A program made the position numbers and the translations under genes. Shown here in pieces: positions 17,150 through 22,107 of a stretch of 64,000 nt of DNA (within the stretch, counting starts at the first letter, position 1; every line of letters starts with the position of its first letter). The notes under the pieces are model-generated. The model was not told the DNA's origin. It did not search any database and was given only the letters and a program-made list of their open reading frames with translations. The stretch comes from Candidatus Competibacteraceae bacterium (GTDB lineage Bacteria; Pseudomonadota; Gammaproteobacteria; Competibacterales; Competibacteraceae), in assembly GCA_027492875.1 (NCBI GenBank), contig JAPUDV010000055.1, positions 1 to 64,000 of the forward strand, written 5' to 3'.

Positions 17150-17352
17150 TTTCACTCCAAAATTCTTCATGCACTGGGAAAAGACCAATAAATTAATTCG
17201 ATGGCTGCCATGAGACAACCGAACAGGCCTAAATAATGCGGGGTTGGGCTGGAAAAATTTACCGGGGGGCTCAATGAGGGTGGATCAGACCACCCCGACA
17301 CCGACCGTCAAGGTCCGTGTCGAGAGTGATTGCAGCGAAGAGATGGCGAAGT

Positions 17353-18099
17353 TTACTTGGCCTTGCCCTGGTTGGCGACGGCGTCCATCAGTTTCTTGAG
17401 TTCCTCGGGGTCGGCGAGGTAGTAGCTCTTGGTGGGCCGCAGCTTGGCGTCGAGTTCGTAGACCAGCGGTACGCCGGTTGGAATATTGAGGGCGATGATC
17501 GCCTCGTCGGACATATCGTCGAGATACTTGACCAGTGCCCGCAAGCTGTTGCCATGAGCGGCAATCACCACGCGCTTGCCGGCGCGGATGGCGGGCACGA
17601 TGCTGTCATGCCAGTAGGGCAGCACGCGCTCGATGGTGGTCTTAAGGCTCTCGGTGGCCGGCAGCACGCGCGGATCGAGATCGGCGTAGCGCGGGTCGTT
17701 GGTGGGGAAACGCGGGTCGGCCGGGTCCAGCGCCGGAGGTGGGATGTCGAAGCTGCGCCGCCAGATTTTGACCTGTTCCTCGCCGTGCTGGATGGCGGTT
17801 TCCGCCTTGTTCAATCCGGTTAGGCCACCGTAGTGGCGTTCGTTGAGTCGCCAAGTCCGATGCACCGGGATCCACATCAGGTCCATTTCGTCCAGCACGG
17901 TCGATAGCGTGCGGATGGCGCGCTTGAGCACCGAGGTGAAGGCAACATCGAAGACGTAGCCTTCCTTTTTCAGGGCTTGCCCACCTTTCCGGGCTTCCTC
18001 GCGGCCCTTGTCGGACAGATCGACGTCATGCCAACCGGTGAAACGGTTTTCCTTGTTCCATTGGCTTTCACCATGGCGGATGAGCACGATTTTGTACAT
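17353..18099 (-). CDS. gpmA: 2,3-bisphosphoglycerate-dependent phosphoglycerate mutase
   Basis: The enzyme interconverts 3- and 2-phosphoglycerate in glycolysis and gluconeogenesis. The 248-residue protein starts [15 protein letters not shown], with the phosphorylated His in RHGE. It contains [30 protein letters not shown] and the second active-site His in [14 protein letters not shown]. The chosen start at 18099 matches the family; the open frame continues upstream to 18282 without similarity. The last residues (ANQGKAK) are typical of the longer bacterial enzymes. Confidence 0.96.
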
Positions 18100-18320
18100 G
18101 AAAGAATGCCTCCTTGGTTCAGGGCGGTCGTGGTCGTCATCGGATGGGGTGTATCGGCCAGCGTTTGGAATGCGCCGGTCTCGGATGGCGGCGGCACCGT
18201 GGGTTAGCAGCGCGCCGATCCCTTGAAGCAATGTGCGAAATTTTCCTGGAGGATCATACGCCGGGCCGGTCGGTTTCGCCACCCGACGTTTGTGCCGCCA
18301 GCCGTGGAGTGGCTTCTCAA

Positions 18321-18342
18321 TATCGCTATATCAAGCTATGCT
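18321..18342. promoter_or_regulatory. Candidate operator upstream of the ArsR-type repressor
   Basis: An AT-rich stretch 40-60 bases before the repressor start contains GCTAT twice (18325 and 18335), one helical turn apart, embedded in TATCGCTATATCAAGCTATG. BigR/YgaV-type repressors bind AT-rich sites at their own promoter. This site is inferred from position and repeat only. Confidence 0.25.
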
Positions 18343-18379
18343 AATACACCGAATTCCCGGATAAGGCGTTGTCGGATTT

Positions 18380-18742
18380 ATGGTGCGTGATGGGTTTGCG
18401 GGTCTTGCGCGGGACGGCGGTGGCGTCGGCGGTTTGGCGCCGGAGTTGCTGATAACCCGCGACGAGGATATCGAGCGAGCCTCGCGTTCGCTCAAGGCGA
18501 TGTCGCATCCATTGCGACTTAAGATTCTTTGTACCTTGGGCGATCAGGAAGTCAGTGTCCAGGAAATCGTCGAGCGCGTGGGCACCTCTCAAAGCAATAT
18601 TTCCCAGCATTTGGCGATCCTGCGCGGCAAGGGCATCCTCACCTGCCGCAAGGATGCCAACCGGGTCTATTACCGGGTGGGAGACGCCCGCACCTTGCGC
18701 CTGATCGGCATGATGCGGGACGTTTTCTGTGCGCGGGCTTGA
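18380..18742 (+). CDS. ArsR/SmtB-family repressor with the Cys pair of sulfide sensors (BigR/YgaV/SqrR-like)
   Basis: This is a 120-residue winged-helix repressor. The core reads SLKAMSHPLRLKILCTLGD, the recognition helix is TSQSNISQHLAIL, and the wing is DANRVYYRV. Cys51 (LCTL) and Cys117 (FCAR) fall where BigR, YgaV and SqrR carry the two cysteines that form a disulfide or polysulfide bridge with sulfane sulfur. A third Cys is at 89. The downstream DUF2892 and rhodanese genes match the partners of such sensors. The inferred role is to derepress the sulfur-handling genes when sulfide or persulfide rises. The first 27 residues are not conserved, so a later start is possible. Confidence 0.85.
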   Translation: MVRDGFAGLARDGGGVGGLAPELLITRDEDIERASRSLKAMSHPLRLKILCTLGDQEVSVQEIVERVGTSQSNISQHLAILRGKGILTCRKDANRVYYRVGDARTLRLIGMMRDVFCARA

Positions 18743-18833
18743 ATCGCCGGAGCGGTTCGATGGTCTCCCGTTGTTACCGTCCGGCGAACCTAGCGTCACA
18801 ATAGTCTTCAGAGGTTATCAATTGAGGTCAAAC

Positions 18834-19064
18834 ATGAGTAGCGAACGGATTATTCGGATCATGGCCGGTTCCTTTATCCTGCTGTCGTTGTTGCTGGGGG
18901 CTTCGGCCAGCCCGCTCTATCACAGCAGCTACTGGCTCTGGTTCACCACCTTCGTCGGGTTTAACCTGTTCCAGAGCGGCTTCACCTGCTTCTGCCCGGC
19001 CGAGCAGATTCTGTGGAAGCTGGGTGTTAAAAAGGCTGGTGCTCCGGTCAGTTGTTCGAACTAA
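18834..19064 (+). CDS. DUF2892 (YgaP-like) small membrane protein
   Basis: This 76-residue protein has two hydrophobic helices (about 8-25 and 33-50) and the GFTCFCPAEQILWKLG tail typical of DUF2892. In E. coli this module is the C-terminal membrane part of YgaP, fused to a rhodanese domain; here it is a separate gene followed by a rhodanese. GAGG precedes the ATG at 18834. The cysteines FTCFCP face the same end as the downstream rhodanese would, suggesting sulfane-sulfur transfer across or at the membrane (inference). Confidence 0.85.
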   Translation: MSSERIIRIMAGSFILLSLLLGASASPLYHSSYWLWFTTFVGFNLFQSGFTCFCPAEQILWKLGVKKAGAPVSCSN

Positions 19065-19085
19065 CGGAACCTCGGGAAATCATTG

Positions 19086-19517
19086 ATGAGCGATTTCATC
19101 GAATTTTCCACACAGAACTGGCTGTTATTTTTGGCCCTGTTCGCCATCGCGGGGATGCTGATCGGTGGCGAGATCCTGCGCAAAATGCGCGGGGTCAACA
19201 GCCTCAGCGCCGCCGAAGCCCTGCGCCTGATTAACGATCAGGATGCCCTGATTTTGGATATCCGCGACAGTGGCGAGTACAAAGAGAGCCACATTCCGCA
19301 GGCGCGCCATATCCCGTTTGGCGCCCTGCGCGACAGGCTGAGCGAACTGACCAAGGCCAAGGACAAACCCATCATCGTTTATTGCCGCAACGGCGCCACC
19401 TCGCAGGCGGCTTGCGCGCAGCTCAAAAAGAATGGAATTGCCAACGTCCACAGCCTGAGCGGCGGGTTGTCGGCCTGGCTGGACGCCCACTTGCCGGTCA
19501 GTCGCAAAAAGCCCTGA
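19086..19517 (+). CDS. Membrane-anchored rhodanese (YibN-like sulfurtransferase)
   Basis: The 143-residue protein has one N-terminal membrane helix (residues 11-29) and a cytoplasmic rhodanese domain. Motifs are LILDIRDSGEYKESHIPQA, HIPFGALRD and the active-site loop VYCRNGATS with Cys100. In E. coli the homologue yibN also precedes grxC-secB-gpsA, so the position is conserved. Its sulfur role fits the repressor and DUF2892 genes just upstream. The ATG at 19086 follows an overlapping TTG that is a poorer choice. Its stop codon overlaps the grxC start (TGATG). Confidence 0.92.
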   Translation: MSDFIEFSTQNWLLFLALFAIAGMLIGGEILRKMRGVNSLSAAEALRLINDQDALILDIRDSGEYKESHIPQARHIPFGALRDRLSELTKAKDKPIIVYCRNGATSQAACAQLKKNGIANVHSLSGGLSAWLDAHLPVSRKKP

Positions 19518-19792
19518 TGCCCGTGCCAGACCCGGCGGCGGCGAACGTCGTGATATACGCCTCTGAGTATTGTCCATACTGCCGGCGCGCGCGGGCATTG
19601 CTGGACGGTAAGGGCGCGGCTTATGCCCTGTTGGATGTGAACCGCAACCCGCGGTTGTGGGAGGAGATCGCCAAACGCACCGGGCGTCACACCGTGCCGC
19701 AAATCTTCATCGGCGACCGGCATGTCGGTGGCTGCGACGATTTGTTCGAGTTGGAGCGGCTCGGTGAGTTGACTCCGTTGTTGCGCGGTTGA
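19517..19792 (+). CDS. grxC: Glutaredoxin 3
   Basis: This 91-residue thioredoxin-fold protein has the dithiol active site CPYC (Cys19, Cys22), the TVPQIFIGD cis-Pro loop and the GGCDDLFELE motif, all standard for GrxC. It reduces disulfides and mixed disulfides with glutathione. The start overlaps the rhodanese stop by one base, so the two are translationally coupled. It is the second gene of the conserved yibN-grxC-secB-gpsA order. Confidence 0.95.
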   Translation: MPVPDPAAANVVIYASEYCPYCRRARALLDGKGAAYALLDVNRNPRLWEEIAKRTGRHTVPQIFIGDRHVGGCDDLFELERLGELTPLLRG

Positions 19793-19975
19793 AGCCGGAC
19801 GCACGCATTGTCCGCCGGTTCGGGTGGCAAGCCGATGCTTCAGGGGATGCCTGGTGGATTGGCCGTCGCCGTTCGATCCGCGCGACGCGACCGGGTCCGA
19901 GTGGATTGTTGGGCTGTATGGCGCCGACCCTGTAGAATGACGGATATCATTCACCCACAAGACAAGGCATTGCGC

Positions 19976-20461
19976 ATGAGCGATCAGCAACAGGTTCCCC
20001 AGCATTTCGAAATTCAGAAGGTTTATCTGAAAGATGTATCGCTGGAGACCCCGAATTCTCCAATGATTTTCACCGAGCAATGGCAACCGCAAACCGAGGT
20101 GCGCCTGGAAACCGGCGCCAAGCCGCTGACCGAGGACTTGTTTGAAGTGTCGCTGACCGTGACCATCACCGCCAAGCTCGATGATCGCACCGCTTATCTG
20201 GTTGAGGTGCAGCAGGGTGGTTTGTTCACGCTGCGGGGTTTCGACGATGGACAAATGGGTCACATGCTGCATGCGTATTGCCCGAACCTTCTGTTCCCCT
20301 TCGCCCGCGAGGAGCTGGCCTCGTTGATCGGCAAGGGCGGGTTTCCGGCATTGCTGCTCAATCCGATCAATTTTGACAGCCTCTACCTGCAACGCTTGCA
20401 GCAGCAGCAGACCCAGGCCGCAGCCTCTTCTTCGCCTTCCGCCCCCCCGACCGCCTCCTGA
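19976..20461 (+). CDS. secB: Protein-export chaperone SecB
   Basis: SecB is the tetrameric chaperone that keeps precursors unfolded and hands them to SecA. From ATG 19976 the 161-residue protein reads FEIQKVYLKDVSLETPNSP, WQPQTEVRLETGAK, LVEVQQGGLFTLRGF and CPNLLFPFAREELASLIGKGGFPALLLNPINF, all SecB hallmarks. The frame is open further upstream, but earlier residues do not match the family. It ends four bases before gpsA. Confidence 0.96.
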   Translation: MSDQQQVPQHFEIQKVYLKDVSLETPNSPMIFTEQWQPQTEVRLETGAKPLTEDLFEVSLTVTITAKLDDRTAYLVEVQQGGLFTLRGFDDGQMGHMLHAYCPNLLFPFAREELASLIGKGGFPALLLNPINFDSLYLQRLQQQQTQAAASSSPSAPPTAS

Positions 20462-20464
20462 CCG

Positions 20465-21472
20465 ATGTTCGCCGCCGTGCGGGTCGCCGTTCTCGGAGCG
20501 GGGAGCTGGGGCACCGCGCTGGCGTTGCTGCTGGCGCGCAACGGGCATGACGTTCGCTTGTGGGGCCACGATCCGGAGGAAGTTGCGCCATTGTGTCAGG
20601 AGCGGGAAAACCGCCGCTACTTACCCGGTATTCCGTTCCCGTCCCGTTTGAACGCGGGCGCCGATCTGGCCGAAGCGCTTGCTGGCGTCGATCTGGCGCT
20701 GGTGACGGTGCCGAGCCATGCCTATGGGGCAACCTTGGCCCGATTGCGGCCGCTGTTGCCGGCGACCGCCGGTTTCTCCTGGGCCACTAAAGGCTTGGAG
20801 CGCGGCAGCGGCCGGTTTTTGCATGAGGTTACGCTGGAGGCGCTCGGCCGCGACCGGCCGGCGGCGGTGATTTCCGGCCCCAGTTTCGCGGCGGAAGTGG
20901 CCCGCGGCCTGCCGACCGCCGTCACGGTCGCCGCTTGGGATGCGGCGCATGCTCGCCGGGTGGCGGCCATGCTGCATGGCTCCAACCTGCGCGCCTACAC
21001 CAGTACTGATGTGATCGGCGTCGAACTGGGTGGCGCGGTCAAGAACGTGCTGGCCATCGCCGCAGGTATCGCCGACGGTCTGGGTTTCGGGGCCAACGCC
21101 CGAGCGGCGTTGATCACGCGCGGACTGGCGGAGATGGTGCGGCTGGGCGTGGCGGCGGGTGGCCAGCGCGAAACCTTCATGGGGTTGGCCGGTATCGGCG
21201 ATTTGGTGTTGACCTGTACCGACGACCAGTCGCGCAACCGGCGGTTTGGCTTGGCGATTGGCCGGGGCGACAGCGCTGGGGCGGCCTGCTCGGCCATCGG
21301 TCAGGTGGTGGAAGGCGCCGCGACGGTACGTGAAACTCTTCGGCTGGCGCGGCGACATGGGGTGGAGCTGCCGATCACCGAACAGGTGGATGCGGTGCTA
21401 TACCATGGCCAAAGTCCGCGCCGGGCGGTGGAAAATCTGCTGGCGCGCGACCCAAGGCCGGAAGAAGTTTGA
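20465..21472 (+). CDS. gpsA: Glycerol-3-phosphate dehydrogenase [NAD(P)+]
   Basis: GpsA makes sn-glycerol 3-phosphate for phospholipid synthesis. The 335-residue protein begins with the Rossmann motif VAVLGAGSWGTALA. It has NRRYLPGIPFPSRL, the SWATKGLERGSGRFLHEV segment, ISGPSFAAEVARG, the catalytic-lysine region GVELGGAVKNVLAIAAGI and GLAGIGDLVLTCTDDQSRNRR. Its four-base spacing after secB indicates one operon. Confidence 0.96.
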   Translation: MFAAVRVAVLGAGSWGTALALLLARNGHDVRLWGHDPEEVAPLCQERENRRYLPGIPFPSRLNAGADLAEALAGVDLALVTVPSHAYGATLARLRPLLPATAGFSWATKGLERGSGRFLHEVTLEALGRDRPAAVISGPSFAAEVARGLPTAVTVAAWDAAHARRVAAMLHGSNLRAYTSTDVIGVELGGAVKNVLAIAAGIADGLGFGANARAALITRGLAEMVRLGVAAGGQRETFMGLAGIGDLVLTCTDDQSRNRRFGLAIGRGDSAGAACSAIGQVVEGAATVRETLRLARRHGVELPITEQVDAVLYHGQSPRRAVENLLARDPRPEEV

Positions 21473-21501
21473 GGCTAAGCCACCGCTGGCTGGCCGACGG
21501 C

Positions 21502-22107
21502 TTAAGTGATGCTTTCCAGCAACGGGCGGCTGTGATCGTCCGTTTCCCGATCCCGGCCAGTGTAGGCCTGCGGCCAGCGCTTCTTGACCACCGGGCTATC
21601 GCTGGCCAGCGCATGACATGTGTTTAGTACCGGCGGCGGCTTGCGGGCGGCGGCGGGCTTGGCGTCTTCCTCGTCGTAACGCTGGCCGTAGAGGGTTTGA
21701 AAGAACGTGGTGGCTACGGGACCCAGCAGCTCGGTCATGTGCGTGCAGCCACCCACGCCACCGAACAGTTCCCTCAGCTTCAACGACCAGCCCGGTCCGA
21801 TCCGCACGCCGACCAACCCCTGGTAACGGTCGGTGATCGTCGGGCACAGGGCGAACGGTGCTCCATCAGTGTGGGCCTCGACCGCTTGAATCAGATACTG
21901 GCTGTCGACGGTCAAGCGGATCCACAAATCGTGTAGCGGTTCGCCGGCCTGAATCGCTCCGCCCCGATCTTCGTTGGGGAAGGGGTAGGTTTTGGTGTCG
22001 ACCAGCCGCCCTTCGATGTCCCATAGGCCATCCTCGCGCCGATAGCCCCAACATTGAACGACGCGCTTGTGCAGTAATTGGCGGGGAGCGGGAGCGGGCA
22101 GCGGCAT
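21502..22107 (-). CDS. DUF2889 domain protein
   Basis: This 201-residue protein of unknown function starts MPLPAPAPRQLLHKRVVQCWGYRREDG, followed by LWDIEGRLVDTKTYPFPNEDRGG. It later shows GVRIGPGWSLKLRELFGGVGGCTHMTELLGPVAT, the conserved pattern of DUF2889. That family is widespread in proteobacteria, including pollutant degraders, but has no assigned activity that I can state. The Cys-Thr-His patch could be a metal or substrate site. The ATG at 22107 is used; an upstream open frame to 22308 lacks similarity. It converges on gpsA. Confidence 0.82.
   Translation of the reverse strand: MPLPAPAPRQLLHKRVVQCWGYRREDGLWDIEGRLVDTKTYPFPNEDRGGAIQAGEPLHDLWIRLTVDSQYLIQAVEAHTDGAPFALCPTITDRYQGLVGVRIGPGWSLKLRELFGGVGGCTHMTELLGPVATTFFQTLYGQRYDEEDAKPAAARKPPPVLNTCHALASDSPVVKKRWPQAYTGRDRETDDHSRPLLESIT

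Follow-up and report, generated by a model that had tools for sequence, protein, structure and literature searches.

A putative sulfane-sulfur-responsive ArsR repressor at the head of a yibN-grxC-secB-gpsA operon in Competibacteraceae and other Gammaproteobacteria

Described persulfide sensors and the organization of the locus

The RSS-sensing cluster of ArsR repressors is defined by the positions of a cysteine in helix 2 and another in helix 5 (PMC10509353; PMC12423496), and the known persulfide sensors have a rhodanese as a neighbour (PMC10509353). BigR of Xylella and Agrobacterium, whose pair is Cys42/Cys108, and YgaV of E. coli bind at their own promoters (PMC5823870 and PMC9774250, respectively), BigR acting at the −10 region of an operon for a sulfurtransferase-persulfide dioxygenase and a sulfite exporter (PMC5823870). 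In the E. coli ygaVP operon the repressor precedes YgaP, a single protein with its rhodanese domain first and its membrane hairpin last. SqrR of Rhodobacter, SoxR/sHdrR of Hyphomicrobium, and HlyU of Vibrio have cysteines at the same positions and target sulfide or thiosulfate oxidation or hemolysin. The E. coli yibN-grxC-secB-gpsA cluster, beside a divergent phosphoglycerate mutase gene (gpmM), has no ArsR gene, and its YibN, for which an interaction with YidC has been reported (PMC12282094), lacks a catalytic cysteine at the canonical position. Thioredoxins and glutaredoxins of E. coli reduce sulfane sulfur, and for that removal OxyR, a LysR-type activator with a scattered regulon (trxC, grxA, katG), induces trxC and grxA (PMC6831875).

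The stretch of DNA analysed here (the window, 64,000 nucleotides) lies on contig 55 of the 3.83-Mb, 146-contig genome of a Candidatus Competibacteraceae bacterium, and the nearest named relatives of its ArsR protein, 90% identical, are in Candidatus Competibacteraceae MAGs. ORF and family searches bore out the coordinates and gene calls of a first-pass annotation, including the order of the repressor, a DUF2892 protein, a membrane rhodanese, grxC, and secB, with gpsA next. The arsR gene (18380..18742, plus strand; PF01022) encodes a 120-residue repressor with Cys51 and Cys117. It is followed on the same strand by genes for a 76-residue DUF2892/YgaP-like transmembrane protein (18834..19064; YgaP-like_TM PF11127, E = 4.5e-13) and a YibN-type membrane-anchored rhodanese with the canonical active-site loop CRNGATS (19086..19517; PF00581), and then by grxC, for a glutaredoxin 3 with a CPYC motif (19517..19792; TIGR02181, 104.8 bits, above the cut-off of 90; 55% to E. 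coli GrxC), secB, for the export chaperone (19976..20461; NF004393, 211.8 bits), and gpsA, for glycerol-3-phosphate dehydrogenase (20465..21472; NF000940, 454.7 bits). The gaps from arsR through DUF2892, rhodanese, and grxC to secB are 91, 21, −1, and 183 bp, grxC overlapping the rhodanese stop codon. As in E. coli, a phosphoglycerate mutase gene diverges from the cluster: here it is gpmA (2,3-bisphosphoglycerate-dependent; 17353..18099, minus strand; PRK14115, 429 bits), which adjoins arsR throughout the family Competibacteraceae and is probably outside the ArsR regulon. A candidate gpmA promoter, TGGCGA-17-TATGAT (18253..18281, minus strand), was read by eye in a block kept in nearly all Competibacteraceae and was not called by a sigma-70 consensus scan. 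Elsewhere in this genome, two near-identical arsenic-type ArsR genes on separate contigs (L002 and L003) suggest a duplicated arsenic resistance unit.

The repressor, its cysteine pair, and a predicted operator

The first-pass annotation had placed Cys51 and Cys117 at the sensor positions of BigR, YgaV, and SqrR, and our alignment agrees, matching them to the pairs of BigR (3pqj) and HlyU and to Cys31/Cys98 of YgaV. A profile of nine ArsR relatives run against the PDB returned BigR as the best match, then HlyU, YgaV, NolR, and SqrR, in that order and followed by a gap. AlphaFold2 modelled the protein at a mean pLDDT of 76 (about 90 in the core, with low confidence over the first 22 residues), and the model places Cys51 within helix 44-53 (helix 2) and Cys117 at the end of helix 103-117 (helix 5), the positions of BigR Cys42 and Cys108 that characterize the RSS-sensing subfamily; the linked sulfurtransferase gene of that subfamily is likewise present, as the rhodanese directly downstream, across the class. 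The nearest folds to the model in Foldseek were HlyU, NolR, BigR, SqrR, and YgaV, which, with PF01022 and the modelled core, identifies a winged-helix ArsR protein. Because NolR shares this fold and has an aspartate at the position of the first YgaV cysteine, fold alone is no proof of a sulfur sensor; the diagnosis rests on the cysteine pair (PMC10509353; PMC12423496), which is absent from the three other PF01022 ArsR genes of the window's genome. The protein falls below the cut-off of the NCBIfam BigR equivalog NF040642 (78.5 versus 155 bits). Membership in the BigR/SqrR/YgaV-type group would make the window's ArsR a sulfane-sulfur sensor, a role that we infer from sequence.

Both cysteines were kept in 126 of 126 orthologues in a first comparison, a set collected partly through conserved peptides, and in nearly all members of a second, independent, weaker set. 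Because this conservation is accompanied by a conserved gene order in the family and the class, the pair is not a chance occurrence. The exception in the second set is an ArsR that stands in synteny before rhodanese-secB-gpsA and has lost the helix 5 cysteine, Cys117 (L171). A third cysteine in the wing hairpin, Cys89, is present in almost every Competibacteraceae orthologue, is nearly confined to that family (36 of 126 orthologues), and is replaced by Ser or Ala elsewhere. In a tree with YgaV, BigR, HlyU, and NolR (SqrR, SoxR, and sHdrR not included), all 31 ArsR relatives including that of the window lay beyond one long branch with support of 98/99; several long branches make the inner placements unsure, and on these sequences the clade is separate from BigR, YgaV (40% identical to the window's ArsR), and HlyU. 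Across 36 operon-bearing genomes, median pairwise identity was highest for ArsR (70%), followed by Grx (52%), SecB (47%), GpsA (44%), and the rhodanese (39%), and ArsR identity exceeded SecB identity in 601 of 630 genome pairs; selection of these genomes from a ranking by ArsR score inflates the ArsR value somewhat. Among the records listed in a plasmid search, the relatives reached only about 40% identity. In one genome of the same family (G001, L031), only the C-terminal part of ArsR is recognizable beside the rhodanese, through either gene decay or an error of assembly. Of 17 loci from another class of the phylum (L235-L251), most have a rhodanese gene downstream of a related ArsR; where the residue can be read, Cys51 is replaced, a helix 1 cysteine occurs in (A/S)RCMKAL, and the C-terminal cysteine is kept, so that the sensor pair looks as if it had been re-sited.

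Comparison of relatives by phylogenetic footprinting yielded a predicted promoter/operator box upstream of arsR, CTTCTCAATATCGCTATATCAAGCTATGCTAATA (18313..18346, plus strand), whose Competibacteraceae form is CTTCTCAATATCGCTATATTCnGCTATGCTAATA and whose form in other lineages is cTTCTCAAAcGGtagaTTATTGTATAATGTTTTAnTAATAaAgGGCA. The box overlaps a likely promoter, because TTCTCA-17-TATGCT lies inside it, the −10 element reading TATAAT in other lineages, a position comparable to the −10 site of BigR action. The box is an imperfect dyad, and its sequence differs between Competibacteraceae and other lineages though the recognition helix is almost invariant. Many boxes of the family read ATTC-N8-TAAT, comparable to ATTC-N8-GAAT, the published SqrR and YgaV motif (PMC9774250), but that of the window does not. 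A sigma-70 consensus scan of 17300-21600 called no promoter, and an inverted-repeat search of 18100-18400 found none. The box is nearly unique: allowing at most 3 mismatches in 20 genomes, 18 had one match, G082 had two, and G159 had none, and the window's genome has a single match, with more divergent sites possible. The second match in G082 (L197; 3 mismatches), between a DUF2007 gene and ttcA, is a probable chance match. ArsR would bind at 18313-18346.

Conservation of the operon and its association with sulfur oxidation

About 24 Competibacteraceae relatives share the order arsR-(DUF2892)-rhodanese-(grxC)-secB-gpsA, which extends across the Gammaproteobacteria, including 1.0-1.1-Mb genomes carrying dsrA. 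More broadly, ArsR heads yibN-(grxC)-(trxC)-secB-gpsA across the class, and in many lineages a TrxC-type thioredoxin 2, read from sequence by its CPHC and WCGPC motifs, stands between grxC and secB. Terminators within the operon were found in none of 23 arsR-DUF2892 gaps and none of 13 DUF2892-rhodanese gaps of the family. The first-pass annotation had held that a strong promoter and terminator between repressor and rhodanese would count against its reading; none was found in the window, whose intergenic gaps contain no terminator-like hairpin, and within-operon hairpins are rare among relatives. At three loci of Sedimenticola-like genomes (L103, L110, and L111), a terminator-like hairpin separates arsR from the rhodanese gene, and coupling may be broken there.

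Rhodaneses linked to ArsR retain the catalytic cysteine in 150 of 152 cases and the membrane helix in all 152. The two that have lost the cysteine (L153 and L155) come from 1.0-1.1-Mb genomes in which the ArsR pair and the operon are kept. In genomes without the repressor, the rhodanese loop is often degenerate: a CR loop was present in 98 of 129 rhodaneses with ArsR versus 1 of 31 without it (Fisher, 2e-14). Because only 2 independent pairs are supported on a SecB tree, this association is not phylogenetically independent, and we do not take it as proof.

Among 369 gammaproteobacterial genomes, a strong ArsR match was present in 116 of 120 with dsrA versus 70 of 249 without it (p = 1.7e-40) and in 139 of 155 with soxB versus 47 of 214 without it; the counts are taken genome by genome, so shared descent inflates the p-values. 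Both dsrA and soxB are missing from the window's genome, which has retained the operon without that metabolism. The recurrence of the ArsR switch and the gene order across the class, and their presence in nearly all sampled dsrA-bearing species, suggest that responding to sulfur stress in this way is standard, though undescribed. Within a library of open-access papers, a search found none combining ArsR, secB, and rhodanese, and none with any four from the set ArsR, rhodanese, secB, glutaredoxin, and gpsA. We suggest, at somewhat less than even odds, that these repressors form an undescribed, class-wide, near single-target orthologue group, separate from BigR, YgaV, and HlyU, that ties thiol reductases and SecB to intracellular sulfane sulfur in nearly all Dsr-type sulfur-oxidizing Gammaproteobacteria.

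A proposed circuit and its alternatives

We propose, with a probability of roughly 0.7, that the window's ArsR is a sulfane-sulfur-released autorepressor of a persulfide-handling operon. Reduced ArsR would bind the predicted box and block transcription of its own operon; as intracellular sulfane sulfur (persulfide or polysulfide) rises, Cys51 and Cys117 would become bridged via at least one sulfur atom, as in SqrR, BigR, and YgaV, and the bridged protein would let the DNA go, derepressing the operon. At the membrane, the YibN rhodanese would then move sulfane sulfur; GrxC, with TrxC in many relatives, would reduce persulfides to H2S and so complete a negative loop. The distal products SecB and GpsA would be raised with the operon where gaps are short, and in the window's genome are probably only partly coupled. 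Several observations speak against this proposal: dsrA and soxB are lacking in the window's genome, the score for the BigR equivalog is below its cut-off, the box is an imperfect dyad that varies by lineage beside a near-constant recognition helix, the sensor persists at L153 and L155 beside a rhodanese without its catalytic cysteine, the syntenic ArsR of L171 is without Cys117, and the association of the sensor with an intact rhodanese loop is not independent of phylogeny. Such a circuit resembles ygaVP in its ArsR cysteine pair, predicted autorepression, downstream membrane rhodanese, and DUF2892-type domain, but differs in having grxC-secB-gpsA downstream. Unlike the bigR operon it contains no dioxygenase, and its YibN-Grx-SecB genes are not the targets of SqrR, SoxR/sHdrR, or HlyU. 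Induction of glutaredoxin and thioredoxin for sulfane sulfur removal, as we infer it here, recalls OxyR, whereas the regulator is an ArsR repressor heading one operon.

The same cysteine pair could serve a general thiol-redox sensor, forming a plain Cys51-Cys117 disulfide upon peroxide, disulfide stress, or glutathione loss, in which case the operon would be a thiol-repair unit. The classical disulfide-reducing genes grxC and trxC and the absence of dsrA and soxB from the window's genome fit this reading, and RexT, an ArsR protein that senses H2O2, has been described (PMC8960804). We nonetheless consider it unlikely, since ArsR sensors of RSS and of H2O2 cluster apart and HlyU is unreactive to H2O2 or GSSG (PMC10509353), the neighbouring genes encode rhodaneses rather than oxidoreductases, and co-occurrence with dsrA and soxB is strong. 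Sensing of a metal or metalloid in the manner of classical ArsR/SmtB proteins is scarcely credible: the protein matches the broad metalloregulator subfamily model NF033788 at 84 bits, but the CxC motif expected in helix 3 of a metal sensor is absent from its whole sequence, the operon includes no metal transporter or arsenic gene, and profile and fold both group it with BigR, HlyU, YgaV, and SqrR, so that we rejected metal sensing.

Two further questions concern what sulfane-sulfur-released ArsR would control. The first-pass annotation had equated the DUF2892 protein and the rhodanese, taken together, with YgaP, and it is true that the former is 30% identical to the YgaP C-terminal membrane domain and that DUF2892 genes also lie beside BigR-type ArsR genes at two other loci (L176 and L177). 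The equation fails as homology for the rhodanese. This protein carries an N-terminal membrane helix of its own, and its alignment with E. coli YibN runs over the full length (residues 1-142 with 1-143, helix included; E = 1e-20), whereas its match to YgaP is limited to the rhodanese domain (E = 1e-10). Its helix, collinear rhodanese domain, and place in a yibN-grxC-secB-gpsA order make it a full-length YibN orthologue; only the DUF2892 protein resembles YgaP, as the product of a separate, added gene restricted to some lineages. Since the rhodanese occurs without DUF2892 in most operons, joint replacement of YgaP by the two proteins is very improbable. The DUF2892 protein probably partners the rhodanese in the membrane. 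As to extent, ArsR control of yibN and grxC is likely, and the chances are about even that the sensor governs only arsR, DUF2892, yibN, and grxC, secB and gpsA being housekeeping genes with their own promoter and an ancient synteny. This narrower regulon concerns extent rather than sensing and is compatible with the rest of the proposed circuit. It is favoured by the occurrence of yibN-grxC-secB-gpsA without ArsR in E. coli and at most of 30 ArsR-less loci, by the 183-bp gap with a weak promoter-like element, TTGGGC-18-TAGAAT (19909..19938, plus strand), found by alignment, kept in the window's genus only and not called by the sigma-70 scan, and by terminator-like hairpins before secB in 3 of 25 family members. 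Against it, the window itself has no terminator, and 46 other operons without a recognized grxC have no terminator-like site in the rhodanese-secB gap, which is often just 30-100 bp. Because of the gap, the genus-conserved element, and the hairpins in some relatives, ArsR control of secB-gpsA in the window's genome is uncertain.

The defined box, the two cysteines, and cultured hosts (for example Thiohalophilus, Sedimenticola, and Ectothiorhodospira) make the proposed sulfane-sulfur switch testable. If it is correct, sulfur-oxidizing Gammaproteobacteria would have one ancestral, strongly conserved sensor of metabolically made sulfane sulfur, coupled to enzymes that reduce persulfides and perhaps also to the export of proteins. 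The operon would thus give the little-understood YibN rhodanese a likely context, and would be a counterpart of the OxyR route in E. coli.
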